Source: Arthrobacter sp. PGP41
Lineage (GTDB): Bacteria; Actinomycetota; Actinomycetes; Actinomycetales; Micrococcaceae
Length of the DNA stretch: 64,000 nucleotides
NCBI RefSeq assembly: GCF_002953935.1
Contig: NZ_CP026514.1
Span: 4,092,001 to 4,156,000, forward strand
Direction: 5' to 3'
The translations under genes and the position numbers were made by a program. Positions within the stretch are counted from its first letter, which is position 1; each line of letters begins with the position of its first letter. Shown here piece after piece: positions 11,902 through 57,737 of this stretch. The notes under the pieces were generated by a model that did no database searches, was not told where the DNA came from, and was given only the letters and a program-made list of their open reading frames with translations.

Positions 11902-11952
11902 CGACGGCGGCACGCAGGTTCTGAAGCTCCAGAAACCTGCGTGCCGCCGTCG
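11902..11952. terminator. Bidirectional terminator hairpin between permease and ggt
   Basis: A perfect 19-bp inverted repeat (11902-11920 with 11934-11952) with a 13-base loop lies between two convergent genes. It lacks a long T-tract, but its position suits a bidirectional terminator. Confidence 0.75.
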
Positions 11953-23635: not shown

Positions 23636-23675
23636 CGACGGCGGTGCCTCCCGCGCAGGGGAGGCACCGCCGTCG
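23636..23675 (-). terminator. Terminator hairpin after malic enzyme gene
   Basis: A perfect 17-bp stem (23636-23652 with 23659-23675) and a six-base loop lie 39 bases past the malic enzyme stop, before the DUF456 gene. Strong stem; no T-run. Confidence 0.75.
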
Positions 23676-28183: not shown

Positions 28184-29623
28184 ATGCCCACTGCACAGGA
28201 GCAGACAACCGCCCGGATACCGCAGCGGGTGATCTGGCTGGCGCTCGCGGGGGCGGTGGGCGGATTCCTGTTCGGCTTCGATTCGTCGGTGGTCAACGGC
28301 GCGGTAGATGCCATGAAGGACGAGTTCGCACTGTCCGAGGCCGTGACCGGCTTCGCGGTGGCCATCGCGCTGCTGGGATGCGCTGCCGGCGCGTTCCTTG
28401 CGGGCAAGGTGGCGGACCACTACGGGCGCATTCCCGCCATGAAGCTTGGTGCTCTGCTCTTCCTGGTCAGCGCGCTGGGCACCGGCTTTGCCTTCGGCGT
28501 CTGGGACCTGATCTTCTGGCGCCTGGTGGGCGGGCTCGGAATCGGCCTGGCTTCGGTGATCGCCCCCGCCTACATCTCGGAGATCTCGCCGCGGCACGTA
28601 AGGGGCCGGCTGGCCTCGCTGCAGCAGCTGGCCATCACCACGGGTATCTTCGCAGCCCTGCTGTCCGATGCGCTCCTGGCCACCAGCGCCGGCGGCGCCG
28701 ACCAGCCCTACTGGCTGGGGATCGAGGCCTGGCGCTGGATGTTCCTGGCCGCAGCCCTGCCCGCCGTGGTGTACGGCTGGGTGGCGTTCACTCTTCCCGA
28801 GTCGCCGCGCTTCCTGGTGTTCCTGGGCAAGGAGGATGAAGCGCGTGCGGTCTTTGACTCGATTGCTCCGGCAGAGGACACTGACCGGCACATCCGCGAG
28901 ATCCAGGACGCCATCGAGGAGGACAAGCTGGCGGGCCAGAAGGGCTCCCTGCGCGGCCGGACCTTTGGCCTGCAGGCAGTGGTATGGGTGGGCATCGTCC
29001 TATCCGTTTTGCAGCAGTTCGTGGGCATCAACGTGATTTTCTACTACTCCACCACCCTGTGGAAGGCGGTGGGCTTCCAGGAGAAGGACTCCCTGGCCAT
29101 CTCGGTGGCCACGTCCGTCACCAACATCCTGGTCACCCTGGTGGCCATTGCCCTGGTGGACCGCATCGGCCGCCGGCCCATCCTGCTGGCAGGCTCCGTG
29201 GGCATGGCCGTGTCGCTGGGCGCCATGGCCCTTGCCTTCTCCACCGCCGTGGGCTCTGGTTCGGAGATTTCCCTGCCCGGTGTGTGGGGTCCGGTGGCCC
29301 TGGTGGCTGCGAATGTTTTTGTGGTGAGCTTCGGCGCGTCCTGGGGACCGCTGGTGTGGGTGCTCCTGGGCGAAATATTCCCCTCCCGGATCCGTGCCCG
29401 CGCCCTTGGCCTGGCTGCGGCCGCGCAGTGGGTGGCGAACTTCGTGATCACGCTGAGCTTCCCGGTAATGGCCGCCGGCTCGCTGCCGCTGACCTATGCC
29501 ATGTACGCGCTGTTCGCCGCGGCGTCGTTCTTCTTTGTCATGTTCAAGGTGCCTGAGACCAACGGCATGTCCCTGGAGCAGGCGGAGACCCTGTTCGTGG
29601 CCAAGGGCTCCACCCGCGCCTAA
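28184..29623 (+). CDS. Sugar porter family MFS transporter
   Basis: The 479-residue protein has 12 membrane segments and the sugar-porter signatures: GFDSSVVNGA in the first segment, GKVADHYGRIPAMK, FWRLVGGLGIGLASVIAPAYISEI, PESPRFLV at the end of the N half, QQFVGINVIFYYS and DRIGRRPILL in the C half. It is a proton symporter for a hexose, pentose or polyol. The mannitol genes begin some 430 bases away on the opposite strand, but they encode a PTS and do not need it. AGGGAG precedes the ATG. Confidence 0.93.
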   Translation: MPTAQEQTTARIPQRVIWLALAGAVGGFLFGFDSSVVNGAVDAMKDEFALSEAVTGFAVAIALLGCAAGAFLAGKVADHYGRIPAMKLGALLFLVSALGTGFAFGVWDLIFWRLVGGLGIGLASVIAPAYISEISPRHVRGRLASLQQLAITTGIFAALLSDALLATSAGGADQPYWLGIEAWRWMFLAAALPAVVYGWVAFTLPESPRFLVFLGKEDEARAVFDSIAPAEDTDRHIREIQDAIEEDKLAGQKGSLRGRTFGLQAVVWVGIVLSVLQQFVGINVIFYYSTTLWKAVGFQEKDSLAISVATSVTNILVTLVAIALVDRIGRRPILLAGSVGMAVSLGAMALAFSTAVGSGSEISLPGVWGPVALVAANVFVVSFGASWGPLVWVLLGEIFPSRIRARALGLAAAAQWVANFVITLSFPVMAAGSLPLTYAMYALFAAASFFFVMFKVPETNGMSLEQAETLFVAKGSTRA

Positions 29624-29637
29624 AGCGGCCCTCTCCC

Positions 29638-29706
29638 CGACGCTCTCTCACTTAATGTCGCCCACCCACCGACGCTCTCTCAGTTAATGTCGCCCACCGA
29701 CCGACG
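29638..29706. repeat. 32-bp-period tandem repeat array, locus A
   Basis: Two 32-base units start at 29638 and 29670, with a partial third at 29702. Each contains the 19-base core ACGCTCTCTCACTTAATGT (one base differs in the second copy) followed by a GC-rich 13-base spacer (CGCCCACC type). The same core occurs inverted at locus B near 40.9 kb, also with a 32-base period. It begins 15 bases after the sugar-porter stop. Confidence 0.9.
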
Positions 29707-29930
29707 TCAGAGCGGTGGGTGGTCAGCTGCATCAGCGTGCAGCCGCGGCGCCGGGATTCATCGATGGCCCACCGCACCATCAGGTTCCCGAGCCCTTTGC
29801 CACGGAGGCTCGCGGCCACCCGCACGCCCTCGATCTGCGAGCGCCAGCCGTCCTGCCGCGACATACGCGGGAGGAAACGGGGCAGGCACCTGGGTTGCGC
29901 ATCACCGGACCAGCATTCCACCGCCAGAGA
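29703..29930 (-). pseudogene. GNAT acetyltransferase remnant
   Basis: The minus strand encodes the middle of a GNAT domain: GWRSQIEGVRVAASLRGKGLG then NLMVRWAIDESRRRGCTLMQLTTHRSD, which includes the acetyl-CoA-binding loop. The N-terminal part is scrambled (the usual LTFLPGMSRQ appears as CLPRFLPRMSRQ with no coherent frame upstream). The C-terminal part stops exactly at the edge of repeat array A. It is a decayed fragment, not a functional enzyme. Confidence 0.75.
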
Positions 29931-29940
29931 CATCACAGCG

Positions 29941-29976
29941 CACGACGCCGGCACTCGGGTGGGTGCCGGCGTCGTG
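29941..29976 (-). terminator. Hairpin downstream of mtlD
   Basis: A perfect 14-bp stem (29941-29954 with 29963-29976) and an eight-base loop lie about 80 bases beyond the mtlD stop. It probably ends the mannitol operon transcript; there is no strong T-run. Confidence 0.6.
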
Positions 29977-29978
29977 AT

Positions 29979-30054
29979 TGCAGGAGGGTTGCGGGAAAAC
30001 CCGCATTATCTGCGAGAGGGTTGGGGAAAAGGCCGCAGGAAGTGCGAGAGGGTT
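29979..30054. repeat. 32-bp-period degenerate repeat array, locus C
   Basis: TGCGAGAGGGTT occurs at 30011-30022 and 30043-30054, exactly 32 bases apart, and a diverged unit starting TGCAGGAGGGTT begins 32 bases earlier at 29979. The element AAGTGCGAGAGGGTT resembles the AAGTGAGAGAGCGTT of locus B, so this looks like a diverged member of the same repeat family. The last copy overlaps the mtlD stop codon. Confidence 0.65.
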
Positions 30055-31217
30055 CAGGCCGGGGCCTTGGCCGCCTCTGCCTGCCGCTCTTCCACCAGGG
30101 TTGCCACGGCGTTGAACAGTGGATGGTCCGGTTCCAGGCCGGTAATGCGGGCGGTAGCGTCCGCCGGGCTGGAGGAGGCCAGGATGCCGGCCAGTTCCGT
30201 GGCCTCGGCGTCGGCGGGATCGTTGAACCGCAGCGCTGCGGCGATGGCGCCCAGGAGCGCCTCCGGCACAATGCCGCGTTCCGCGAGTTCGGCGGCGGGA
30301 CCGATGAACCGTTCGTGCCGGCTTAGCTTCCGCAGCGGGGCACGGCCCACCCGGTGGACGGTGTCCGGCAGGTAGGGGTTGGAGAACCGGACCAGGATTT
30401 TCTGGACGTAGGCTTCCTGCTCGTCGTTGCTGAAACCGTGCTTGCTCACCAGGAGCTGCTTGGTTTCCTCCAGCACCGCCCGGACATCCTCGGCCACGTC
30501 CTGGTCGGCCATGGCCTCGGAGATCTTCGCCAGGCCCGCCTCGAACCCGAAGTAGGCGGCCGACGCGTGGCCGGTATTGACAGTGAACAGCTTCCGCTCG
30601 ATGTACGGCGAGAGGTCATCCACAAAGGTGGCCCCAGGGATGACCGGTGCGGAATCACCGAAGGCAGTGCGGTCGATGACCCATTCGTAAAAGGTCTCCA
30701 CCGTGACGTCCAGGCCCTGCCCTGGTTCCTGGTTGGGCACAATCCGGTCCACCGCGGTGTTCGCAAACACGGCTTTCCCGTCCAGCGCCCCGGCGGCTGC
30801 CCCCGGCTGGGAGGCAACCTCCTTGGCGAGGATGTCCGTGGCGTTGATAGCGTTCTCGCACGCCATCACCTCCAGCGGCGGAAGACCGGGGCCCCTTGCC
30901 ACGATGCCCCGGGCAATGACGGGCGCCACGAACTTCAGGATGTGCGGGCCCACCGCGGTGGTGACGATATCCGCCGTCGCGATTTCCGCGACGAGCTCCG
31001 CTTCCTGCGTGGTGGAGTTCAGCGCCCGGAAATTGGTGACTGTCCGCACGGCAGGGTTCTCCCCCACCTCGTGGACCGCGTAGCTGTCCGCTGCAGCGAG
31101 CTGGCTGATGAGGTCCTCGGCAACGTCCGCGAACACCACCTCATAGCCGGCGTCGTGCAGGAGCAGCCCGACAAAACCGCGGCCGATGTTTCCGGCCCCG
31201 AAATGTACAGCCTTCAC
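30054..31217 (-). CDS. mtlD: Mannitol-1-phosphate 5-dehydrogenase
   Basis: The 387-residue protein begins with the dinucleotide-binding motif [16 protein letters not shown] and has the long-chain polyol dehydrogenase motif with a catalytic lysine ([22 protein letters not shown] near 205-226). It oxidises mannitol-1-phosphate, delivered by the PTS encoded just upstream, to fructose-6-phosphate. The GTG start shares one base with the mtlA stop, so translation is coupled. The 3' end runs into repeat array C. Confidence 0.95.
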
Positions 31218-33208
31218 TATGCGTTGACCTTTCCGAAGAGCTCCAGGACTTCCTCCACCGAGGTGGCCGCCTCAAGCCGGGCAACCTGTTCCTTGTTGGT
31301 GAAGACCTTCGCGATGGCGGACAGGATGTGCAGGTGTTCGTTGTTGACTCCTGCGACGCCCACGACGAACTTGACCTGCTTGCCGTTCCAGTCGATCCCC
31401 TCCGGGTACCGGATCACGGAAACCGCGGACTTGCGGATGTGGTCCTTGGCGGCGTTGGTGCCATGCGGGATGGCCAGGAAGCTGCCCATGTAGGTGGACA
31501 CGGACTGCTCCCGCTCGTGCATGGCCGCGATGTAGCCCTCGTCCACCGCACCGCGGTCCAGCAGGAGCCGGCCGGCTTCGTCGATCGCGGCGTCGCGCGT
31601 GGTGGCCGATCCGTTAAGCACAACGCTCTCGCGGGCCAGGATCTCGTGCGTGCCGGCACCGGGGGCGGCATCCACCGGAGCCTCGGCTGCTTGGGCACTG
31701 CTTGCCTGCCCGCCCTCGGTGTTGCTCTTCCGCACCAGTTCCACGATCTCGTCGTAGCGGGGGCTGCTCATGAAGTTGTCCACCGAGTAGTGGACGGCAC
31801 TGGACGTGGCCGGCTTGGCCCGTTCCGTCAGGTCCTGGTGGGTGATCACCACGTCGTAGTCGTCGCGAAGGTTGGCGATGGCCGCGTTGGTGACCTTGAC
31901 GTCCGGGAACCCGGCCGCCTTGATCTTGTTCCGCAGCACCGAGGCGCCCATGGCACTCGAGCCCATGCCGGCGTCGCACGCGAACACGATGTTGCGCACC
32001 GGCCCGGCCAGGACGGCCACGCCGCCCGCGCCGGCAGCCGCGCCGGCACCGGCCAGGCTGGAGGCAACGGAGCTCTTCTTGCCCTTCATCTGCTCCATCT
32101 TTGCGGTGGCGTCATTGAGGTCCACTTCGTCGCTGTGCTTGGTGGTCTTCATGATGATGGAGGCCACCAGGAAGGAGGCCGTCGTGGCCAGCAGGACCGC
32201 GAGGATCACCCCGAGATAGCTGTCGCGGGAGGTCTGGGCGAGCACCGCAAAAATGGAACCGGGGGCGGCTGGCGCCACCAGCCCCGAACCTGTGATGGCA
32301 AGGGTGGCCACACCGGTCATGCCGCCGGCGATCGCAGCAAGGATCAGCAGCGGCCGCATCAGCACATACGGGAAGTAGATCTCGTGGATGCCGCCGAGGA
32401 AGTGGATGATCGCGGCACCGGGAGCCGAAGCTTTGGCGGCTCCCCGGCCGAAGAACATGTAGGCGAGCAGGATGCCCAGGCCGGGGCCGGGGTTGGCTTC
32501 AAGCAGGAACAGGATGGACTTGCCCTGCTCCAGTGACTGCTGGACGCCCAGCGGAGTGAGCACGCCATGGTTGATGGCGTTGTTGAGGAACAGCACCTTG
32601 GCCGGCTCGATGAAGATGCTGGTCAGGGGCAGCAGGCCGTTGTCCACCAGGAACTGGACCACGTTGCCGGCACCCGCGCTGAACGCAGAAACCACCGGAG
32701 CGATGGCATAGAAGCCAAGCATGGCCAGCAGGGCGCCCCAGATGCCCGCGGAGAAGTTGTTGACCAGCATCTCGAAGCCGGGGCGGATCTTGCCCTCCCA
32801 GAGGGAGTCGATCTTCTTCATGGTCCAGCCGCCCAGCGGGCCCATGATCATGGCACCGATGAACATCGGGATGCCGGCACCCACAATCACGCCCATTGTG
32901 CCGATGGCGCCCACCACGCCGCCGCGGACGTCATAGACCATCCGGCCGCCGGTATAGGCAATCAGGAGGGGCAGCAGGTAGGTGATCATCGGCCCGACGA
33001 GGCCAACGTTCGGCTTTCCGTCCGTCTCCCCGAAGCCACCCAGTTGGGGAACAGGCACCCAGCCCTTCTGGATGAAGAGTGCCGTGATGATGCCCCAGGC
33101 GATGAAGGCGCCGATGTTGGGCATGATCATGCCGGACAGGAACGTCCCGAACTTTTGGACGTGCACGCGCGCGCTGGTGCGGGGTTTTGCAACTGTCTCT
33201 GTTGCCAT
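31217..33208 (-). CDS. mtlA: Mannitol-specific PTS permease, EIICBA
   Basis: The 663-residue protein holds all three PTS parts in one chain. The IIC membrane domain covers about 1-345 with [14 protein letters not shown]. The IIB domain is near 400-495, with phosphocysteine loop [15 protein letters not shown]. The IIA domain is near 515-660, with phospho-histidine motif LAIPHGTN at about 580. It imports and phosphorylates mannitol. It is the first enzyme gene of a TetR-mtlA-mtlD unit and depends on EI encoded divergently at 34.1 kb. No domain is truncated. Confidence 0.95.
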
Positions 33209-33256
33209 GTGATTTCCTAACCGTCATTCCTGCTGCTCCGCAGGATGGTCCGATGT

Positions 33257-33979
33257 TTAAGAGCTTGTGGAGATGCGGTGGAGCCATTCGAGGAAAAGCT
33301 TGAGCTCCGAGCTTGAAAGCTGGTCAGAGTGCGATGCCTGAAGTGCGGCGTTCAGGGCGATCGCTGCCACTACTACCGAGGATCTCCCGGCATCTCCCGG
33401 GGCCGGGCCGCTGGCGGGCTCGGCTGACACCGCAAAGATCATGGCGTCCCGGGTCATGGTGGACAGTTCGAGGTTCCGCTCGGAGGCGGGCTCCGCAATC
33501 AGCATCAGCGTCACGCCCACGTTGGCCGCCAGGATGGACCTGGCCGCTTCCCTGGGCTGGACGTTCAGCTGGCCCGCCGCCGCTGCCTTGTTCAGCATCT
33601 CCTCCATGAGCGCCTCGGCGTCTGCGACGATCGCCGGGCGGCTTTCCGGGCGGATGTTGCCGAACATCACCAGGTACAGTTCCGGTTGATTCAGCCCGAA
33701 CTGCACATGGTTGTCCCACATTCTCCGAATATCCTCGAGCGGCTGTCCGGAGGGGGCGAAATCCCTCTCGCCCGCTACGTAGTCTTCAAACCCTGCGGCG
33801 ACGACGGCGTCAAACAGACCTTCCTTGTCACCGAAGTGGTGGTACAGCGTGGGAGCTGTGACCCCCGCCAGCTGCGTGATCTGGCGGGTGGAGACGGGAG
33901 CGCCCGCCGAGTTCGCCAGCAGCTCCGCGGCAGCACGGAGCAGTCGCATTTTGGGGGGAAGCTGGCCATCCAAACTCAT
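33257..33979 (-). CDS. TetR-family regulator of the mannitol PTS module
   Basis: The 240-residue protein has a TetR HTH at about 10-55 (LLRAAAELLANSAGAPVSTRQITQLAGVTAPTLYHHFGDKEGLFDAVV) and a helical ligand domain. It lies 48 bases upstream of mtlA on the same strand and diverges from ptsI. The shared intergenic region holds a perfect palindrome at 33998-34012, so it probably represses itself, mtlAD and ptsI. The inducer is unknown. Confidence 0.88.
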   Translation of the reverse strand: MSLDGQLPPKMRLLRAAAELLANSAGAPVSTRQITQLAGVTAPTLYHHFGDKEGLFDAVVAAGFEDYVAGERDFAPSGQPLEDIRRMWDNHVQFGLNQPELYLVMFGNIRPESRPAIVADAEALMEEMLNKAAAAGQLNVQPREAARSILAANVGVTLMLIAEPASERNLELSTMTRDAMIFAVSAEPASGPAPGDAGRSSVVVAAIALNAALQASHSDQLSSSELKLFLEWLHRISTSS

Positions 33980-33997
33980 AACCGCTACCCTAGCACC

Positions 33998-34012
33998 TAT
34001 AGCATTGCTATA
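33998..34012. promoter_or_regulatory. Perfect 15-bp palindrome, candidate TetR operator
   Basis: TATAGCATTGCTATA is a perfect palindrome around a central T, placed 19 bases upstream of the tetR start in the divergent tetR/ptsI promoter region. Its size and position fit a TetR-dimer operator. Confidence 0.65.
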
Positions 34013-34138
34013 TGAACTGAATCACATACAATTTTTTTCAGGCACGTTTCCCGCCTCCGGACGTAGCAGTCCGGGCGGACCGGCATGGCGCCGGCGGTAT
34101 CGGCGGGCCTGGCAACCGGCAGAGAATGAGGACCTTCA

Positions 34139-35824
34139 GTGCAGAACTTCCCAGGAGTAGGCGTCAGCCCAGGCCGCGTCATCGGCACCATCCGGCAGAT
34201 GCCCAAACCCATCAGCGAACCTCCCGCCAGCGAGCAGCTGGCGGCGGGGACCACCGCGGAGGAAGCAACCGCAGCCCTGAAGGCGGCCTCCCAGGCCGTG
34301 CACGATGAACTGAAGGACCGCGCCGCCCACGCCATCGGTGATGGAAAGGCCGTCCTGGAGGCAACTGCGCTGATGGCCAAGGACACCATGCTCATCAAGG
34401 GTGCCGCCAAGCTGGTGGCCCGCGGCACGTCCGCCGAGCGCGCCATCTGGGAGTCCGGCTCCTCGGTCTCCGAAATGCTCCACAACCTGGGCGGCTACAT
34501 GGCGGAACGCGCCACTGACGTCCTTGATGTCCGTGCCCGGATTGTCGCTGAGCTGCGTGGAGTGCCCGCACCCGGCATCCCGGCATCCAGCACACCGTTC
34601 GTCCTGGTGGCCGAGGACCTGGCGCCGGCGGACACCGCTACCCTGGACCCCAACAAGGTCCTCGCGCTCGTCACCGCCGGCGGCGGCCCGCAGTCCCACA
34701 CGGCCATCATCGCCCGGTCCCTCGGCCTCCCCGCCGTTGTTGCCGCCGTGGGCGTGGATGAGCTCCCCGACGGCACCGAAGTCTACGTGGACGGCGCCGC
34801 CGGCAACATCACCTCCGAACCTGACGAATCCCTGCGCGCGGCAGCGGAAGCGTGGGCAGCCACGGCTTCCCTGCTGGCCGAGTTCAACGGCACGGGCGCG
34901 ACGGCGGACGGCCACCTGGTGCCGCTGCTCGCCAACGTGGGCGGCGGCAAGGATGCCGAGGCGGCAGCCAAGCTGGGCGCCCAGGGCGTAGGCCTCTTCC
35001 GCACCGAGTTCTGCTTCCTGGAACGTGACACCGAACCCAGCGTTGAAGAGCAGGCCGCGGCCTACAAGAGCGTTTTTGACGCTTTCCCGGGAAAGAAAGT
35101 GGTCCTGCGCACGCTTGACGCCGGGGCCGACAAGCCGCTCCCGTTCCTGACCGACTCCACCGAGCCGAATCCTGCCCTGGGTGTCCGCGGCTACCGCACG
35201 GACTTCACCACCCCCGGCGTCCTGGACCGGCAGCTGGAGGCAATCGCCCTGGCGGAGAAGCAGTCCCAAGCGGACGTCTGGGTCATGGCCCCCATGATTT
35301 CGACGGCGGAAGAGGCTGCCCGGTTTGCCTCCATGTGCGCGGACGCCGGCATCAAGACCCCCGGCGTGATGGTGGAGGTCCCGTCCGCCGCCCTGACCGC
35401 CGAAGCCATCCTTCGGGAAGTTGCCTTCGCCAGCCTCGGCACCAATGACCTCACCCAGTACGCCATGGCCGCAGACCGCCAGCTCGGCCCGCTCGCCAAC
35501 CTCAACACGCCCTGGCAGCCGGCCGTCCTGCGCCTCGTTGGCCTGACAGTCGAAGGGTCCCGCGCGGAAGGAAACAACAAACCCGTGGGCGTGTGCGGTG
35601 AGGCGGCGGCCGACCCTGCCCTCGCCGTCGTCCTTACCGGCCTGGGCGTAAGCACCCTGTCCATGACGGCCCGCTCGCTTGCTGCCGTGGCGGCGGTGCT
35701 GAAAACCGTCACACTCGAGGAAGCCCAGCAGCTGGCGAAACTTGCCTTGTCCGCTCCAAGCGCCACGGAAGCGCGGGCATGGGTCCGGGAGAAGCTGCCG
35801 GTCCTGGAAGAACTCGGCCTCTAG
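34139..35824 (+). CDS. ptsI: PTS enzyme I (phosphoenolpyruvate-protein phosphotransferase)
   Basis: The 561-residue length matches EI. The N-terminal HPr-binding helical part is followed by the phospho-histidine motif GGGPQSHTAIIARSLGLPAVV near 180-200 and the PEP-binding TIM barrel with LRTLDAGADKPL, TNDLTQYAMAADR and the catalytic cysteine in VGVCGEAAADP. It takes phosphate from PEP for HPr. No HPr gene is present in this cluster. The start is GTG at 34139. Confidence 0.95.
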   Translation: MQNFPGVGVSPGRVIGTIRQMPKPISEPPASEQLAAGTTAEEATAALKAASQAVHDELKDRAAHAIGDGKAVLEATALMAKDTMLIKGAAKLVARGTSAERAIWESGSSVSEMLHNLGGYMAERATDVLDVRARIVAELRGVPAPGIPASSTPFVLVAEDLAPADTATLDPNKVLALVTAGGGPQSHTAIIARSLGLPAVVAAVGVDELPDGTEVYVDGAAGNITSEPDESLRAAAEAWAATASLLAEFNGTGATADGHLVPLLANVGGGKDAEAAAKLGAQGVGLFRTEFCFLERDTEPSVEEQAAAYKSVFDAFPGKKVVLRTLDAGADKPLPFLTDSTEPNPALGVRGYRTDFTTPGVLDRQLEAIALAEKQSQADVWVMAPMISTAEEAARFASMCADAGIKTPGVMVEVPSAALTAEAILREVAFASLGTNDLTQYAMAADRQLGPLANLNTPWQPAVLRLVGLTVEGSRAEGNNKPVGVCGEAAADPALAVVLTGLGVSTLSMTARSLAAVAAVLKTVTLEEAQQLAKLALSAPSATEARAWVREKLPVLEELGL

Positions 35825-35848
35825 GGACACCGTCCGGCCCGTGCCGCC

Positions 35849-36631
35849 CTATGCGGTCACGCCGAAACCATCCAGTGCACGAACCCAGCCACTGATGGCC
35901 CGGGCCGCCCTTCCAGGGGCAGTGTGCTGCAGAACGTGGCCCTGGCCCGGGATTTCAGCCACTGTGCCCTGCTGCGCAATGGCCGCGAGGCGTTCGCACC
36001 AGGGGCGGCGCGCAATGGGATCCTTGGCGCCGCGAAGGACCAGGCAGGGTTGGCTGATGCCGGCCAGCCTTTCCTCCATGGGGTATGCCATCATGACCGG
36101 CAGTTCGGTGAGGTACCAGCGCGGCCCGGCCCTGAAGTAGTCGCTGAACACGACGGCGTTCGATGTCAGGCTCTCCCTTAACAGTGCGTCGCGGGTGAGG
36201 GCCAGCGCCTGCCTGGTGACAGTCTTCCTGGGGGAATCCACCACCGGCCCCATCAGGACGGCACCGGCCACCCGGCCGGGTTTCCGGAGCGCCAGTTCCA
36301 CCGCGAACTGCGCGCCCATGGAATGCCCCACAACCACATAGCTGGAAACGCCGGAGTCGGCCAGGACAGCGCCCACGAACTCCGCAAAATCATCGATCTG
36401 GAGCTGGCGGGGCGGCCTTGACGCCTTGCCGAAGCCCGGGAGGTCGAATGTATAGACATCCGCTTCCCTGGCCAGCTCGAGATGCAGCCGGGCCAGGTAC
36501 CGGTGGGAAACTCCGATGCCGTGCAGCAGGACGTAGGCAGGCCGGTTAGGGGCTCCCGCGGGAAGGACTGAGGCGTAAAGCCTGCCCCGAAGCCCGCCCG
36601 CTTCCACATCCCGGCCGCCGCTAAGTTCCAT
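35849..36631 (-). CDS. Alpha/beta hydrolase
   Basis: From ATG 36631 the product is 260 residues. The oxyanion strand VLLHGIGVSH is near 39, the nucleophile elbow VVGHSMGAQFAVELAL near 105 (Ser in GHSMG), and a late IPGQGHVLQHTAP carries the catalytic histidine; LVLRGAKDPI marks the acid strand. It is a cytosolic esterase/lipase-type hydrolase of unknown substrate. The frame is open upstream to 37096, but that extension overlaps the HTH gene and is rejected. It is convergent with ptsI. Confidence 0.88.
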   Translation of the reverse strand: MELSGGRDVEAGGLRGRLYASVLPAGAPNRPAYVLLHGIGVSHRYLARLHLELAREADVYTFDLPGFGKASRPPRQLQIDDFAEFVGAVLADSGVSSYVVVGHSMGAQFAVELALRKPGRVAGAVLMGPVVDSPRKTVTRQALALTRDALLRESLTSNAVVFSDYFRAGPRWYLTELPVMMAYPMEERLAGISQPCLVLRGAKDPIARRPWCERLAAIAQQGTVAEIPGQGHVLQHTAPGRAARAISGWVRALDGFGVTA

Positions 36632-36679
36632 TTGCCGAGCATACCGCCCGGGCGGGGTGGCCGCCGGTAGGCTGGGTGC

Positions 36680-37087
36680 ATGGCACTGATAGCTCCGCGG
36701 ATCACTGGCGCCCTCCCGTCGGAGGATGCTGAGAAGCTGGGCCGGGCGCTTGCGGGCAGCGACGACATCACCGTCTTCGTGGATGGCACGGTCCATCGGC
36801 TGCCGCCACTGGCGAGGGACGCCGTCGTCGATCTCCTGCACCGCTTCAGCCGCGGCGAAGCGGTGACCGTCAGCAGCGTGGAGGACATGCTCACCACGTC
36901 CAAGGCAGCCGAGCTGGCGGGCATTTCCCACACGTACCTGCGCAACATGACGGACCGCGGGGAGATCCCGGTGGAGTACCGCGGCACCCACCGGCGGATT
37001 CCGCGGGCCGCCATAACGGCCTGGTTGGAGAAGCAGAAGAAGGCCGAACAACCTGACGAAGCGAAGGAACCAGGGAACAGCGCCTAG
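36680..37087 (+). CDS. Excisionase/MerR-type HTH protein (orphan antitoxin-like)
   Basis: The 135-residue protein has a strand-rich N-terminus (ITVFVDGTVHRLPPLARDAVVDLLHRFSRGEAVTV) and a C-terminal excisionase-type winged HTH (LTTSKAAELAGISHTYLRNMTDRGEIPVEYRGTHRRIPRAAITAWLEK). This layout matches antitoxins that usually precede a PIN-domain toxin gene. Here only 12 bases separate its stop from the convergent PucR gene, so no toxin follows and it appears to be an orphan. It may still act as a repressor. Confidence 0.78.
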   Translation: MALIAPRITGALPSEDAEKLGRALAGSDDITVFVDGTVHRLPPLARDAVVDLLHRFSRGEAVTVSSVEDMLTTSKAAELAGISHTYLRNMTDRGEIPVEYRGTHRRIPRAAITAWLEKQKKAEQPDEAKEPGNSA

Positions 37088-37099
37088 GTTCTGCACGCC

Positions 37100-38320
37100 T
37101 CAGATGCGTGGCCGGCCCGCCCAGCGGCGCATCTTTAGCGCGGCATGGAGCTCCAGGCGGGGCATCCCTTTGAGCGGATCAACGCCGAGCAGCTGGCGAA
37201 TCCGGCCCAGCCTGTTGTAGATGCTGCTGCGATGCAGGTGGAGCTTGGTGGCCACGTCCTGGACCGAGCCGTCGTTGTCGTACAGGAGTTCCAGGACCGG
37301 AAGCAGCTCCCCGTTGCGGTCGTGGTCCTCAAGCATGCGGAAGTAGACCGAAGCCGAGTCAGCCCAGGCACTCGCGCCTCCGCCAGCGGACGCGAGCAGC
37401 TGGTAGACGCCCGTGGCCCTGCAGTCCACGAGTTCCCCGAGCTGCGGATCCACGGCGGCAGCCTGGGCCGCCAGCTTGGATTGGCGGTACGCCGCGGCGA
37501 GCCCGCGCGGCCGGCCAAAGCCCTCGCTGATGCCCAAAATGATGCGCTGCACCGGACGGCCGGAACGCTTGGCAAGCTCCAGCTGGTAGTGGACCAGCAC
37601 CTGGGCGTGGTTGGCCCGGCCGGACAATTCGCGGAACAGCACAACGGAATGGGTGTCCGTGCCGGCGCTGAACAGGGCGGAGTCGACGCCGATGGTCGCC
37701 TGGAGCGCGGCAGAGCGGTGGATGAGGGTGGAGGCGATGGGGTCGGATCCGCCGGCCCAGCCATCGGCGTCGAGCACTGTCACCACCTGCCAGGGACCGC
37801 GGCCCTGGATTTCCTTCCAGCCTGCAATGGCGGCCACGGCGTTGGGCTCGCCGGAGCAGGCGGCCAGGAACTCCCGTTCACGCCCCCGCCGGAATTCGGA
37901 CTCGGCCGTGTTCGAATCGAGCAGGAGCCCTGACAACGTTTCAAGCTCGTGGTTGACGGCCGGCAACTGGGTGAGGATCGCGGTCGGATTCTCATCGGCG
38001 GAGTCCTGCTGCACCCACAGGTACCCCACCCGGAAGCCGCGCACCATCAGCGGAACGCACACCCGGCCCAGCATGCCCAGGTCCTGGTTGGCCGGCACCA
38101 CCACCGGACGGACGGCGGTGGCAATGCCGTGCGAGAGCTGCCAGGCGCTGACGTCGGCCGGCACTTTCTTGCTCAGCAGGAAGTTCACCCGCACCCGGTC
38201 CGCGTGGGACTGGTTGGAGCTGTAGGCCAGCAGCACCCCGTCCAGATCCTCCAGTGACAGGCCACGGCCCAACTTCTGCGCCACCTGTTCAACCAGCTGT
38301 TCCACACCCTGCTGCTGCAT
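37100..38320 (-). CDS. PucR/CdaR-family transcriptional regulator
   Basis: The 406-residue protein ends in the PucR C-terminal HTH ([38 protein letters not shown] near 350-386) and has a central GGDEF-like degenerate domain and an N-terminal sensor part typical of the CdaR/PucR group. It is divergent from alanine dehydrogenase, and regulators of this type commonly activate ald in Micrococcaceae and mycobacteria, so alanine or nitrogen sensing is likely. The inference rests on neighbourhood. Confidence 0.9.
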
Positions 38321-38405
38321 GGGCCAACATTACTGCCTGGGCGGCTTCCGGGACGAACGGACACGAGGCGACACCTGCCGCCCTGCGGCTCGACAAATGT
38401 CCAGC

Positions 38406-38441
38406 ACGAACCGGCAAAAACCCCGGAATGACGCGGTTCGT
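38406..38441. promoter_or_regulatory. Inverted repeat in pucR-ald promoter region
   Basis: ACGAACCG (38406-38413) and CGGTTCGT (38434-38441) are perfect inverted copies 20 bases apart, in the 233-base divergent region. The spacing, about three helical turns between centres, could suit a dimeric regulator such as PucR binding on one DNA face. Confidence 0.45.
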
Positions 38442-38553
38442 TTTCGGGCCGCCGCTCGCTTTCATGTCAGCTGGCTCACAACCGGATTTATCGTTGATAC
38501 ACGAAATCCTTCCGCACTTTCCGGCGTACCAAGCCGAGAACCTGGAGCCCACG

Positions 38554-39672
38554 ATGATCATCGGCGTCCCTAAAGAAATCAAGAACAACGAGTTCCGGGT
38601 GGCCATCACCGCCGCCGGTGTCCACGAGTTCCGCAGCAACGGCCACACCGTCCTGGTGGAGCGCGGCGCGGGGCTGGGCTCCGGCATCACCGACGAGGAA
38701 TACTCCATCGCCGGCGCCGAAATCGTCAATGAAGCCGACGACGTGTGGGCCCGCGCCGACATGGTCATGAAGGTCAAGGAGCCCATCAAGGCCGAGTACC
38801 ACCGCTTCCGCAAGGGCCTGATCCTTTTCACCTACCTCCACCTGGCCGCCGAGCCCGAACTCACCCGCGAGCTCATCAACTCCGGCGTCACCGCCATCGC
38901 CTACGAAACCGTCCAGGAAGGCCGCACCCTTCCGTTGCTCGCCCCCATGTCAGAGGTTGCGGGCCGGCTTTCCGTGCAGGTGGGCGCCGCGTCCCTGATG
39001 GCACCCGCCGGCGGAAAGGGCGTGCTGCTCGGCGGCGTTCCCGGCGTCCGGCCCGCCAAGGTAGTTGTCCTGGGCGCGGGCGTTGCCGGCACGAACGCCG
39101 CAGCCATGGCACTGGGCCTGGGCGCCGACGTCACCATCATGGACATCAACATCAACCGGCTGCGCGAACTGGACGCCCAGTACCAGGGCCGGCTCAAGAC
39201 CGTGGCATCCAACAAGTACGAGATCGAGAAGTCCGTGGTGGACGCCGACCTGGTGATCGGCTCCGTCCTGATCCCCGGCGCCAAAGCCCCCAAGCTCGTC
39301 ACCAATGACCTCGTGGCCCGCATGAAGCCCGGCTCAGTCCTGGTGGACATCGCCGTGGACCAGGGCGGCTGCTTCGAGGACACACACCCCACCACGCACC
39401 AGGAACCCACCTACAAGGTGCACAACACCATCTTCTACTGCGTAGCCAACATGCCCGGCGCCGTACCCAACACCTCCACCTACGCGCTGACCAACGTCAC
39501 CCTGCGCTACGCGGTGTCCCTCGCCAACCTGGGCGTCAAGGCAGCCTTCGACCGCGACCCCGCCCTGGCCGCAGGCCTGAACATCGCCGCCGGCCACGTG
39601 GCACACCACTCCGTGTCCGAGGCACACAACCTGCCGCTCGTCGCCGACTGGCACGAACTGGTTTCGGCTTAA
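38554..39672 (+). CDS. ald: Alanine dehydrogenase
   Basis: From ATG 38554 (GGAG upstream) the product has 372 residues, the usual length. It starts [17 protein letters not shown] and contains the pyruvate/alanine site [10 protein letters not shown], and the Rossmann motif [21 protein letters not shown] near 170-190. It reversibly deaminates L-alanine to pyruvate with NAD. The frame is open upstream to 38254 but overlaps pucR, and the extension is unlike the family. A large palindrome follows the stop. Confidence 0.95.
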
Positions 39673-39678
39673 GTAGTC

Positions 39679-39740
39679 CATCGATTGCTCCGTACGCGTC
39701 GTTTTGAACCCCCTGAACGACACTTACGGAGCAATCGATG
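39679..39740. terminator. Long cruciform/bidirectional terminator between ald and oxidoreductase
   Basis: A perfect 16-base inverted repeat (39679-39694 with 39725-39740) extends inward through a two-mismatch step into GTCGTT/AACGAC, giving about 24-base arms around a 12-base loop TTGAACCCCCTG. It sits between two convergent genes and abuts the oxidoreductase stop. It may serve as a terminator or be a dispersed palindromic repeat. Confidence 0.65.
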
Positions 39741-39741
39741 C

Positions 39742-40806
39742 TTAATGCGCGAGCTTTCGTGCTTCTTCTATTAGTTTGAGTGCCTCGACGGCCTCTTCCG
39801 GCTTGACCGGGAGGGGCTTGGGGGACGTCGCTCCGCCGTCGAGGATTTTGTCCGCGAGGATACGGTAGAACTCGGGGTAGGCGCCGCGTTCGGTGGGCAG
39901 GGCGTCGAGGTGGCCATCGCGGCCCAGCAGTCCTGCCCATTCCGGCGCCTCCTCCCCGTATTCGGCGTCCAACGGGCTGCCTCCCGCTGCGATGTACGGC
40001 TCCTGCGGGTCCACGCCTTTCTTCGTGAATCCGCCAACGGAACCCAGCACCCGGAACCGCGGTCCCTGCTGGGCGCACATCATGTTCATGGTCAGGTGGC
40101 TCAAAACACCGGATTCGTGCCGAAGTACCAGGAACACGTCGTCGTCCGCCCTCTCGTCCGACCTGCGTGCCTTCAACTCTGCGTGGACCACGGAGGCCGG
40201 GCCAAAGAGCTGGAGCGCCTGGTCGATCAGGTGGCTGCCCAGATCGAACAGCGTACCGCCGCCCTCCGCCGCGGTGGCGCGCGCCTTCCAGGCCTTCGCG
40301 ATGGCCGGGGACCACCGCTCGAAGCGGGACTCGAACCGCGTGACCTTGCCCAGCGCGTCAGCGGACAGGAGTTTTTGCACCGTCAGGAAGTCGCCGTCCC
40401 ACCGCCGGTTCTGGAATACCGTCAGGAGCCGCCCCAGCTCCTCGGCCAGCGTGGTCAACTCCTGGCCTTGTCCACTCGTCACGGCGAACGGCTTGTCCAC
40501 CACTACATCCACGCCTGCCTCCAGGGCCGCCTTGGCCAAGGGATAGTGGGTAGCCGGCGGTGTTCCCAGGACCACGAGGTCCACCTCATCCGCGCGGGCA
40601 AGGACCGCCTGGCCATCCGGTACTGTCCGCACCCCCGGATACCGGGCGGTGGCCGCGGCGTCCCTGCCGGGGTTGGAGGTGGCGATGAGATCCAGCGAAT
40701 AGCGGGGGTCCGCCGCTATCAGGGGGGCGTGGAACACGCTTCCGGAAAGCCCGAACCCCACGACGGCGGTACGGATGGTGCGCTGTGAAGCTTGGTCCCC
40801 GGTCAT
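39742..40806 (-). CDS. Gfo/Idh/MocA-family oxidoreductase
   Basis: The 354-residue protein begins with a Rossmann motif (AVVGFGLSGSVFHAPLIAADPR) and has the conserved EKP-type lysine as DKPFAVTSGQG near 98-108, followed by VFQNRRWDGDFLTVQKLL. These resemble the actinobacterial YdgJ-like group of sugar/inositol NAD(P)-dependent dehydrogenases. Substrate unknown. It is convergent with ald. Confidence 0.92.
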   Translation of the reverse strand: MTGDQASQRTIRTAVVGFGLSGSVFHAPLIAADPRYSLDLIATSNPGRDAAATARYPGVRTVPDGQAVLARADEVDLVVLGTPPATHYPLAKAALEAGVDVVVDKPFAVTSGQGQELTTLAEELGRLLTVFQNRRWDGDFLTVQKLLSADALGKVTRFESRFERWSPAIAKAWKARATAAEGGGTLFDLGSHLIDQALQLFGPASVVHAELKARRSDERADDDVFLVLRHESGVLSHLTMNMMCAQQGPRFRVLGSVGGFTKKGVDPQEPYIAAGGSPLDAEYGEEAPEWAGLLGRDGHLDALPTERGAYPEFYRILADKILDGGATSPKPLPVKPEEAVEALKLIEEARKLAH

Positions 40807-40855
40807 GGTCCTACGCTACTCCCGCCAGGCTTGGTTGCGCGGCGCCGAAATGGGG

Positions 40856-40940
40856 GCGTTAGGTGAGAGAGCGTTCCAAGGAAACCCACGTTAAGTGAGA
40901 GAGCGTTCCAAGGAAACCCACGTTAAGTGAGAGAGCGTTG
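40856..40940. repeat. 32-bp-period tandem repeat array, locus B
   Basis: Two full 32-base units (40857-40888 and 40889-40920) and a partial third carry the core ACGTTAAGTGAGAGAGCGT (40888-40906 and 40920-40938; first copy 40856-40874 with two differences), separated by TCCAAGGAAACCC. The core is the reverse complement of the locus A core. Array B lies between the oxidoreductase start and the end of the peptide ABC operon. Confidence 0.9.
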
Positions 40941-40957
40941 AGGGGCCGGGCAGACGG

Positions 40958-40998
40958 CGAAGGCCGGCACCCATGTCCCCAGGGAGTGCCGGCCTTCG
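40958..40998 (-). terminator. Terminator hairpin after peptide ABC operon
   Basis: A perfect 13-bp stem (40958-40970 with 40986-40998) with a 15-base loop lies 18 bases past the substrate-binding protein stop. It probably ends the operon transcript. Confidence 0.7.
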
Positions 40999-41015
40999 CT
41001 ATAGAGCGGGCAGCG

Positions 41016-42734
41016 CTACTTCTTTTCCCAGCCGAGGGTGGTCCAGTCCGGAACCTGCGAAAGGCTCTGGAACAGGGACGGGCCGTAGTTGGCCAGGCCG
41101 GTGCGGACGAAGGAGATCTGCGGGCCGTTCATGACCACGCCCATGGAGTAGTACTTCGCCATGTGCTCCTTCTCCACGTCCATGGCCGCCTTGTTGCGCT
41201 TGGCGTTGTCCTCGATGGACGCCAGGTCCGCGATCTTCTTGTCCAGCTCGGCGTCGCCCAGCTGGTTTTCGTTGGTCTTGGAGTCGTAGTACTGCTTGAC
41301 GGCGGACGTGGCGTCCGCGCCAACCGTGTAACCGGAAACGCTCATGTCGAACTCACGGGCACCCAGGACCTTGCCGAAGTCGGCAGAAGCGCGCTGGTCG
41401 ATGCCAACATCCATGCCGCCGGCCTGGAGCTGCTTCTGCAGTGTCTGGGTGAAGGCGAGGGTGGTGGGGTCGTCACCGAAGTTGCTGATCTTGAAGGCGG
41501 CGGGCTTGCCGTCCTTCTCCATGATGCCGTTGGCGTTCGCCTTGTAGCCGGCGTCGGTCAGGACCTTCTTGGCGGCATCCGGACCGGTTTCCTTCACGGG
41601 GTAGTTGTCCTGGTAGTACTCGGAGAAAGGCAGCAGCATCATGGAGCCGGAGCTGGGCTCTTCCCAGTTCAGGCCGTTGAAGCGGACCTTGCGGAGGGCT
41701 TCGCGGTCGACGGCGGCGAAGATCGCCTTGCGGACAGCCACATCGGTGATGCGCTGGGCGTTGAGGTTCATGCCGCCGGCAAACAGGCGCTGCCCGCGGC
41801 GGACCTCGGAGTCCTTGGTGCCGTCAAGCTGCTTGTAGAGCGAGATGGTGTTGGCGGACATGGCGTCGATCTCGCCGTTCTTGAAGGCAGCGATCTGGGC
41901 ACTGGTCTCAAGCTGGCGGAACACCACGTTCTCCAGGACCGGCTTGTTGCCCCACCACTTCTCGTTGGGAACCAGGGTGACGGTCTTGGCTGCGGTGTCG
42001 TACTGGTCCAGCTTGAACGGGCCGGCCATCCACTCCGGGTGCAGTTCGCCGTTGAAGCCCTCGTTGAAGACTTCGGGGCTGTTCACGGCGGGATGGATCA
42101 GGCCGAAGAACAGGTCCTCCAGCGGGTACACCGGCTGGCTGGTCTTGACGATGATTTCCTTGTCGCTGCTGCCGGCCTCGACGGACTCAACAAACTCGTA
42201 CGATCCCGAGGAGACGATGTCGTAGCCGGCATCCGGGCTCTTGAGGATGTTCCAGGTGTTCTGGAAGGCCTTGATGTCGATGGGGGTGCCGTCGTTGTAG
42301 GTGGCCTTCTCGTTCACCTTGATGGTGATGGTTTGCTTGCCGTCCTTGACTTCGTTCTTGACGTCCTCGCAGAAGTCCTTGTTGGGGGTCGCCTTGCCCT
42401 CGAAGTCGACTTTCCAGCAGCCGCCGATGCCGCCGCTGTTCACGGCCACCGGGTTCATCGGAATCTGCAGCGCGGAGTTGTCCGCACTGTTGCCGTTGTT
42501 GGAGAATCCGTTGAAATCCGGGCCGATGTTGCCCAGCGGAAGCGTGACCTTGCCGCCCTGTTCAAGATCGGCTGCCGGCTTCTCATTGATGCTGATGAGC
42601 TTGGAGAGGTCGCTGCCTGCCTCCTGGCCCTTGGCCGTTTCCGGCCCGGTGGACCCGCCACCGCCGCCGCAGGCCGTCAGCGCCAGAGCTGCGGCAATGG
42701 CCGCCGCTCCGCCGATCCTGTTCAGATTCCTCAT
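41016..42734 (-). CDS. Oligopeptide ABC transporter substrate-binding lipoprotein
   Basis: The 572-residue precursor has a lipoprotein signal with lipobox ALTAC (Cys near residue 22) followed by a glycine-rich tether. The rest matches family 5 extracellular solute-binding proteins (NEKATYNDGTPIDIKAFQNTWN near 165-185). It would bind peptides at the outer face of the membrane and feed the permeases encoded upstream in the same operon, where it is the last gene. AAGGGA precedes the ATG. Confidence 0.93.
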   Translation of the reverse strand: MRNLNRIGGAAAIAAALALTACGGGGGSTGPETAKGQEAGSDLSKLISINEKPAADLEQGGKVTLPLGNIGPDFNGFSNNGNSADNSALQIPMNPVAVNSGGIGGCWKVDFEGKATPNKDFCEDVKNEVKDGKQTITIKVNEKATYNDGTPIDIKAFQNTWNILKSPDAGYDIVSSGSYEFVESVEAGSSDKEIIVKTSQPVYPLEDLFFGLIHPAVNSPEVFNEGFNGELHPEWMAGPFKLDQYDTAAKTVTLVPNEKWWGNKPVLENVVFRQLETSAQIAAFKNGEIDAMSANTISLYKQLDGTKDSEVRRGQRLFAGGMNLNAQRITDVAVRKAIFAAVDREALRKVRFNGLNWEEPSSGSMMLLPFSEYYQDNYPVKETGPDAAKKVLTDAGYKANANGIMEKDGKPAAFKISNFGDDPTTLAFTQTLQKQLQAGGMDVGIDQRASADFGKVLGAREFDMSVSGYTVGADATSAVKQYYDSKTNENQLGDAELDKKIADLASIEDNAKRNKAAMDVEKEHMAKYYSMGVVMNGPQISFVRTGLANYGPSLFQSLSQVPDWTTLGWEKK

Positions 42735-57695: not shown

Positions 57696-57737
57696 ATATA
57701 TGCCTCAAAAGGAATAGATTCCATTTGAGGCATATAT
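57696..57737 (-). promoter_or_regulatory. 42-bp near-perfect palindrome upstream of bkd operon
   Basis: Arms 57696-57715 and 57718-57737 are 20 bases long, with one mismatch, around a two-base AG centre. Half-site: TTTGAGGCATATAT. It lies 48 bases upstream of bkdA in an AT-rich promoter region, so it is probably a regulator operator. It is also downstream of the upstream aminotransferase gene, but it lacks a terminator-type T-run. Confidence 0.65.

Follow-up and report, generated by a model that had tools for sequence, protein, structure and literature searches.

A dispersed palindromic repeat at gene 3' ends of Arthrobacter sp. PGP41 and a coupled gene for a predicted AbiEi-Vsr-like nuclease

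Introduction

The window analysed here is a stretch of 64,000 nucleotides from Arthrobacter sp. PGP41 (contig NZ_CP026514.1, positions 4,092,001 to 4,156,000) that carries two repeat arrays, locus A and locus B, in which a 19-bp core recurs every 32 bp. The question raised by these arrays is what kind of element keeps its core and its period while the filler between the cores changes from one locus to the other. A sequence-only reading had described a core on opposite strands at two loci, an exact spacing of 32 bases and a filler differing between the loci, and had suggested a replicating or recombining element or a protein-binding array rather than a simple duplication. Each array proves to be a half-arm of a palindromic element with many dispersed copies, and on balance the arrays are best explained as copies of a non-autonomous palindromic repeat in a two-part system, the other part being a gene, here called the driver. 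This genome, a single contig of 4.27 Mb, is labelled G000, and other genomes and loci carry G and L labels.

Architecture and copies of the element

A complete element consists of n units, each a 19-bp core with a 13-bp filler, followed by a central hairpin and then by inverted units. The plus core and the minus core at the central hairpin usually start 18 bp apart, and the cores start with ACGCTCTC or dialect variants. The window contains five core matches at up to three mismatches (29640 and 29672 on the plus strand and 40856, 40888 and 40920 on the minus strand) and its 100 shuffles contain none. The opposite strands, the 32-base spacing and the differing fillers of the two loci are confirmed. 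The sharing of the core is imperfect, with one mismatch at 29672 and two at 40856. The inventory of arrays had been incomplete, as a minus-strand array at about 29994-30054 with the core variant ACCCTCTCGCA is the opposite arm of locus A, and in place of two loci the genome holds about 37 such clusters (manual count, two weak singles excluded). Searched genome-wide, the core has 87 copies at up to three mismatches against one for the reversed control, so it is by no means confined to the window; a looser pattern gives 101 matches (control 10), and a weight-matrix scan of the fetched G000 loci gives 152 units against about 8 in shuffles. The period holds elsewhere too, since same-strand neighbours in G000 are 32 bp apart in 68 of 74 cases (31 in three, 33 in three), and in 110 elements from named genomes the distance between arm core and central core is exactly 32 bp for 196 of the 208 scorable arms. 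This period is close to three helical turns.

Cores in G000 agree at 0.80 and fillers within one arm at 0.61, while fillers from different loci agree at 0.375 against the 0.383 predicted from positional composition. At filler position 13, 43% of the G000 units have G and 45% have A. Paired changes were read by eye in the central palindromes (CTATC/GATAG, ACCC/GGGT and others), and next to the centre, pairing at filler positions 10-13 is 0.60-0.78 versus 0.33-0.45. A whole-element hairpin under pairing selection was rejected because clear pairing is confined to the centre and these filler positions, and a small hairpin within each filler is weak (z of about 3 among many tests) and is not claimed.

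Several known classes of sequence were also considered. An Rfam scan of eight loci returned four matches, all to microRNA families and far below the gathering scores; these were taken as chance hairpin similarity, and a known RNA family was rejected. A phage or plasmid origin was set aside because the exact two-unit pattern of the G000 dialect is present in no viral contig and, among 72,556 plasmid records, in a single one, which is a replicon of Arthrobacter. The arrays do not read as a CRISPR array, the fillers being alike within an arm instead of unique spacers, and no search for cas genes was made. The elements are unevenly distributed over G000 (0.14-0.61, 1.57-1.75, 2.18 and 2.94-4.23 Mb), with weak single matches only at 0.61-1.57 Mb.

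Species dialects and the coupled gene

Cores are largely uniform within a species and vary from one species to another, and these species forms are referred to as dialects. Among the matches listed, the dialect core is CTCTCTCACTTAATGC in G000, ACTTCCTGC in G020 and G073, and ACATCCCG in G195 and G266, and G045 and G102 have CTCCC-type cores; another genus of the family has the dialects CTCGCTCACTCCACGTCG and CTCGCTCACATACGGGG. The 32-bp period was built into the dialect search pattern, and around the drivers it appears without that requirement. The reversed-pattern control of this survey overstates the background, since that pattern itself matches the element family. An initial classing of many genomes as low-copy was wrong, as some of them carry another dialect.

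In three genomes with distinct dialects the arms flank one common gene family. This driver gene is present as one or two close orthologs in each genome examined, encodes about 319 amino acids and is bounded by inward-facing arms. Thirty orthologs were fetched at a minimum identity of 61%, and a flank array was called where at least 14 of 19 positions matched at lag 32 within 330 bp. Period-32 arrays lie on both flanks in 25 of the 30, including three of four second copies, and in 19 by a stricter rule. Neither rule finds such arrays in any of 20 distant homologs (31-59% identical), 14 of which have long palindromes of their own on both flanks, versus 0 of 57 window genes. Flank clustering places the drivers at several different junctions. 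The coupling between gene and repeat is regarded as almost certain.

The dialects on the driver flanks were then searched genome-wide, with copies at the driver included in the counts. The core ACSCCCGCTCAC has 19, 47, 48 and 39 copies in G001, G011, G017 and G117, as had been predicted beforehand, as well as 22 in G009 and 13 in G006, and it has 0-3 in the remaining 17 of 23 genomes. The core AACGCGGTATCAC has 18 copies in G392 and 0-1 in 13 other genomes, and ACGCTCCTGCAC has 47 in G243, 23 in G355 and 0-4 in 12 other genomes. In G121 the driver and locus B share that genome's unusual dialect. Gene conversion is an unlikely origin of the dialects because fillers are not shared between loci. 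The cores follow the genome-wide dialect and the fillers do not, which makes a sequence-specific factor a more likely cause than the copying of whole units, and the driver product, an AbiEi-Vsr-like protein delimited by the same arms, is the obvious candidate for such a factor.

The 9-mer TTATCCACA, which we take to be a DnaA box, lies 47-78 bp before the aligned start in all 30 drivers (within L316-L365) and 46-88 bp before it in 17 of the 20 homologs, against a background of one in the window and nine in 858 kb. This DnaA-box-like sequence suggests that expression of the driver is linked to replication. Judged by their translations, genes found between arms include the driver (L275, L293), an acetyltransferase-like gene (L280) and an aldolase-like gene (L308), and the centres of the palindromes may be insertion hot spots.

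Predicted driver protein

Of 7997 scored candidates, 801 are homologs of the driver protein at E<=1e-20, and the best 120 of these 801, where they carry a name, are called hypothetical, DUF559, endonuclease-domain or AbiEi-type proteins. DUF559 and MTES_1575 match all 27 aligned members at E<=1, AbiEi_4 matches eight, and PADLOC AbiEi models match the N-terminal part. The model of P0007, an intact driver protein of Arthrobacter sp. U41, was built from 100 sequences and has a predicted local distance difference test score (pLDDT) of 86.4, compared with 48.8 for an input of 27 close sequences. Residues 202-307 of this model match I-Bth0305I and Vsr, and residues 52-199 match the AbiEi antitoxin; the best Protein Data Bank (PDB) match given by Foldseek is the I-Bth0305I nuclease (E 0.011). 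A C-terminal nuclease fold of the Vsr/PD-(D/E)XK type is present in the model. Residues E207, D239 and D265 are invariant over the 100 sequences, and H256 is nearly so. The residue beside the DG..H nuclease motif is usually acidic and is an invariant Q in the aligned subfamily. On the modelled fold, the driver protein is predicted to join an AbiEi-like N-terminal part, with the DNA-binding fold of an antitoxin, to a nuclease fold that is Vsr-like (DUF559).

Placement at gene ends

Placement was scored in 111 named stretches found through the central palindrome, all of them from Arthrobacter, Pseudarthrobacter, Paenarthrobacter or a metagenome-assembled genome of the Micrococcaceae, with gene calls from our own codon-usage gene caller. 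The elements lie in 47 convergent and 50 tandem gaps, two are called inside a gene and 12 are at stretch edges, so that none of the 97 scorable gaps is divergent. Counted over these stretches with the element gaps among them, all gaps of 100 bp or longer are tandem in 146 cases, divergent in 125 and convergent in 68. Where G000 arrays of one orientation lie in tandem gaps, the transcript strand reads CTCTCTCAC in four of four.

Filler positions 4-7 are A/T-rich, and at this fixed position the composition tends to follow the direction of transcription. In 40 tandem-gap elements the transcript strand has T:A counts of 141:26 on the entry side and 118:58 on the exit side (58:14 and 32:23 for G000 alone), and convergent elements are balanced (155:161). 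At the locus B junction, 32 units from many species give T125:A5. With units of other dialects read on their own strand, T exceeds A in five of six genomes (39:6, 25:6, 24:10, 23:4 and 25:1). A T-tract that follows transcription is a filler composition that plain duplication would not explain. A layout like that of an intrinsic or Rho-type terminator is present, with a central hairpin, a strand rule for the T-tract and no divergent gap among 97, and the exceptions come from G000, G266 and G045.

Junctions compared between species

The query for locus B has a match in all 121 genomes of the same genus that were searched, and 72 locus B junctions were extracted, two of them without a comparable gap. 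By an automated rule, 27 of 33 complete elements have no ordinary GC-rich terminator hairpin, and 33 of 37 half or absent elements keep it. The resulting contrast (27:6 versus 4:33) has an odds ratio of 37 and a p value of about 1e-9, which overstates the evidence because the species are related. The rule errs both ways by eye, as L075, L079 and L254 look interrupted or of another dialect and were counted as half or none, the ordinary hairpin of L234 was missed, and the 'ordinary' hairpin of L267 sits inside the element. The complete element and the ordinary terminator hairpin largely exclude each other at this junction.

Between G000 and G078 the number of units differs in 32-bp steps at several junctions, and concerted changes are seen within arrays. 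Plain 32-bp duplication is among the ways in which the arrays grow. At locus A, G078 has a different and longer inter-arm sequence, lacks the left arm and keeps the right arm. In G078 (L213) approximately 1 kb between the arms looks, by its translation, like a MerR-type regulator together with a membrane protein. An arm is interrupted in L075 (G071) and L293 (G298) by a short inverted repeat around GAACTGCTCCCCG(G/A)AAGTTGGACTG that resembles an insertion-sequence end.

Features of the window

The coordinates of the window features are collected in Table 1. The left arm of locus A begins 16 bp past the stop codon of the plus-strand gene ending at 29623, and the right arm adjoins the 3' end of the minus-strand gene 30054-31217. 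Locus B is a half-element located downstream of the minus-strand gene 41016-42734 and upstream of the minus-strand gene 39742-40806. No copy of the driver is found within the window. A distant homolog of the driver, at G000:545664, is flanked by the palindrome type seen at 39679-39740, the end sequence of which turns up again in several locus B stretches of other species. The window further contains an AT-rich near-perfect palindrome at 57696-57737 (ATATATGCCTCAAAAGG...TTTGAGGCATATAT) and GC-rich hairpins at 11902-11952 and 23636-23675 with common ends (CGACGGCGG...CCGCCGTCG). Ends like those of the two hairpins recur beside elements in other species and perhaps represent another repeat family.

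Table 1. Repeat-associated features of the window, with positions counted from its first nucleotide
Feature	Positions	Strand	Description
Locus A left arm	29640..29703	+	Two 32-bp units, cores 29640-29658 and 29672-29690
Between locus A arms	29704..29993		Resembles a broken acetyltransferase (GNAT) gene, by reading of translation
Locus A right arm	29994..30054	-	Two units, cores 30003-30021 and 30035-30053
62-bp palindrome of another repeat type	39679..39740		Starts CATCGATTGCTCCGTA; wider system, not the 32-bp array family
Locus B	40847..40939	-	Three cores 40856-40874, 40888-40906 and 40920-40938; two intervening fillers identical
GC-rich terminator-like hairpin, ordinary type	40957..40999		Retained beside the locus B half-element

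Discussion

The data directly support the architecture of the element, its 3'-end preference, the strand rule, terminator exclusion at one junction, the gene-repeat coupling and the matching of dialects. From here we infer binding, cutting, mobility and termination along the following lines. The first part of the system would be the driver gene within its inward-facing arms and the second part the tens of dispersed elements of that genome with a matching core dialect. The AbiEi-like part would recognise 19-bp cores spaced at about three helical turns, and that the driver protein reads the core is likely. The nuclease part would nick or cut the element, probably in the form of a hairpin that is extruded or single-stranded, and the cut element would be copied into, or kept at, gene 3' ends, although the case that the nuclease drives spread or upkeep of the elements is evenly balanced. 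Tandem slippage would then alter the unit number by 32-bp steps. The complete element would serve as a transcription 3'-end signal, with a YC-rich core, a T-tract on the non-template strand and a central hairpin, and could replace an ordinary terminator; such a termination role is rather more probable than its absence, and the exclusion of the ordinary hairpin at the locus B junction lends it indirect support.

A broader proposal, held tentatively and with somewhat less than even confidence, is a class of mobile repeat in which an AbiEi-Vsr nuclease, not a transposase, would recognise and spread palindromes. Subfamilies, each with its own palindrome, would coexist in a genome, the DnaA-box-like sequence upstream may tie their activity to replication, and in this genus the elements would have been domesticated as replacement terminators. 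The sequence-only reading pointed in the right direction, as the fixed period, the species-specific cores and the coupled gene fit a replicating element or a binding array. It had missed the half-arm nature of the arrays within a palindrome, the preference for 3' ends with a transcription-oriented T-tract, and the nuclease-like gene with matching arrays.

Several results weigh against the two-part system. The 23 copies of ACGCTCCTGCAC in G355 correspond to neither of its two examined drivers, and the 13 copies of ACSCCCGCTCAC in G006 have no matching driver among those examined. Five of the 30 drivers (L320, L325, L323, L337 and L348) have no clear array on one flank, the right arms of L320 and L325 being 1.1 kb away, and the G000 driver is interrupted by an in-frame stop, where the G078 copy reads through. 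The query protein alone has no Pfam or NCBIfam match at 1e-3, and Foldseek alone gives no PDB match at E<=0.001. Gaps called divergent hold 3 of 37 classed clusters in G000 and 1 of 8 in G266, the units of G045 are without a bias of T over A (28:36), and the ordinary hairpin stands alongside a complete element in 6 of 33 locus B junctions by the automated rule. Outer arms match their own partner just slightly better than shuffled partners (0.850 versus 0.829, above all 2000 shuffles, for 89 elements with two good arms); the excess comes mainly from positions 12, 13 and 16 with relatedness uncontrolled, and at position 3 none of 6 deviations is matched. Of the 29 junctions that could be compared between G000 and G078, 27 carry the repeat in both genomes (manual count, with 9 of 38 clusters not comparable), so that movement looks slow or absent, and empty sites are under-sampled in this comparison because the G078 stretches were picked around G078's own matches. 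No target-site duplication, empty site or transposition event was demonstrated, and the cross-genome counts are not independent, the species being related.

The occupation of the same junctions across species fits a 3'-end control network without mobility. Here an AbiEi-like regulator or termination factor would bind the cores, selection would maintain the elements and the nuclease would be inactive or would act in repair. The replacement of ordinary terminators at locus B, the T-tract oriented by transcription, the sharing of cores without fillers between loci, and the invariant Q beside the DG..H motif in the aligned subfamily all favour such a network. It is nevertheless unlikely, though it deserves consideration, because it leaves unexplained the inverted arms around the driver gene at several different junctions and the other palindromes at the matching position of distant homologs.

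The genes other than the driver between arms, namely the acetyltransferase-like remnant of locus A, the aldolase-like gene of L308 and the acetyltransferase-like gene of L280, would suit a passive repeat comparable to repetitive extragenic palindromic (REP) sequences. Such a repeat would be shaped by slippage, template switching or past mobilisation by a lost enzyme, with the nuclease gene as cargo that tolerates insertion in palindromes, and tandem expansion in 32-bp steps is plain slippage. The association, which holds for 25 of the 30 orthologs and, where tested, involves the dialect of the genome itself, extends with other palindromes to 14 of 20 homologs; together with the three dialect tests this makes the account improbable. 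A site array for a chromosome-organising DNA-binding protein, for which transcription would be irrelevant, corresponds to the protein-binding array of the sequence-only reading and agrees with a period near three helical turns and with a filler conserved in length and not in sequence; it is very improbable, as the filler T-tract and the core orientation follow gene direction and none of 97 complete elements lies in a divergent gap. DNA uptake sequences of natural transformation run into the thousands and have dialects and inverted pairs near gene ends or terminators, a similarity that is scarcely credible as an explanation here, where copies number tens to low hundreds, only 2 of 111 are inside genes, and such a signal is not known for arrays with a fixed 32-bp period or for a nuclease gene flanked by its copies.

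If the two-part system is correct, an unrelated enzyme class would join the drivers of dispersed palindromic repeats, for which the accessible parts of the cited literature name only Y1 transposases, and a large family of actinobacterial proteins, most of which carry the annotation hypothetical or DUF559, would gain a function. Because genomes have their own dialects, the system would offer a natural experiment on the joint change of DNA-recognition specificity and genomic sites. Selfish-looking DNA would apparently have taken the place of an ordinary terminator at one defined gene end. The match between the species-specific core and the arrays beside the driver suggests a hitherto unrecognised type of element that spreads in genomes and has been adopted at the ends of genes.

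Comparison with known systems

No description of the 32-bp repeat or of the repeat-gene coupling is found among the literature matches listed, with subscription papers outside the coverage, and the papers cited below are represented by the available parts of their text. One close comparison is with REPIN/RAYT systems, for which co-evolution of gene and repeat has been argued (PMC2817692, PMC3116915). Shared features are many extragenic inverted-repeat elements and a genome-specific sequence matched to a gene bounded by inverted copies (PMC2817692, PMC3116915, PMC3733652). The extragenic position holds here for all but the two of 111 elements called inside a gene, and 25 of the 30 driver orthologs, or 19 under the stricter rule, are bounded by inverted copies, but with a different enzyme. 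Unlike the IS200/IS605-type Y1 transposase of REPIN/RAYT, the system described here combines a direct 32-bp unit and a non-palindromic core with AbiEi and Vsr folds, and there is no GTAG tag at the core end as defined for REPs in the available text of PMC3733652. The Y1 transposase (PF01797) was found in 0 of 24 genomes searched, with a control search positive in 5 of 14 named genomes. A RAYT-driven REP was rejected on this basis, and the system is not filed under REPIN-RAYT. By analogy, the element would work in a manner that resembles REPIN-RAYT with an unrelated enzyme.

CGTC-tagged REPs are described as small palindromes without a transposase of their own and, in the text available, are reported from five phyla, Actinobacteria not among them (PMC3733652). 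About half of the G000 units are preceded by G and read GACGC/GCGTC, and the present repeat may or may not be related to these REPs. The fixed-period direct arrays and the tie to a nuclease gene set the present family apart, as neither is described for CGTC REPs in the available part of the same source (PMC3733652). Bacterial interspersed mosaic elements (BIMEs) are composite clusters of regularly spaced repeats with suggested roles in protein binding and Rho-dependent termination (PMC2817692). The present arrays are similarly composite and regularly spaced, but BIME orientation alternates, whereas units here are direct within an arm, inverted only across the central hairpin and separated by a fixed 13-bp filler. 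RepRanger provides palindrome counts for Arthrobacter livingstonensis (PMC12306157), and these may include the present family, the comparison being by counts only in the accessible text. Unlike the Vsr-like homing endonucleases (I-Bth0305I, 3r3p), the driver adds an AbiEi-like N-terminal part and flanking palindromic arrays, and unlike AbiEi, the antitoxin of the AbiE toxin-antitoxin system, its AbiEi-like part is predicted to be fused to a nuclease fold.

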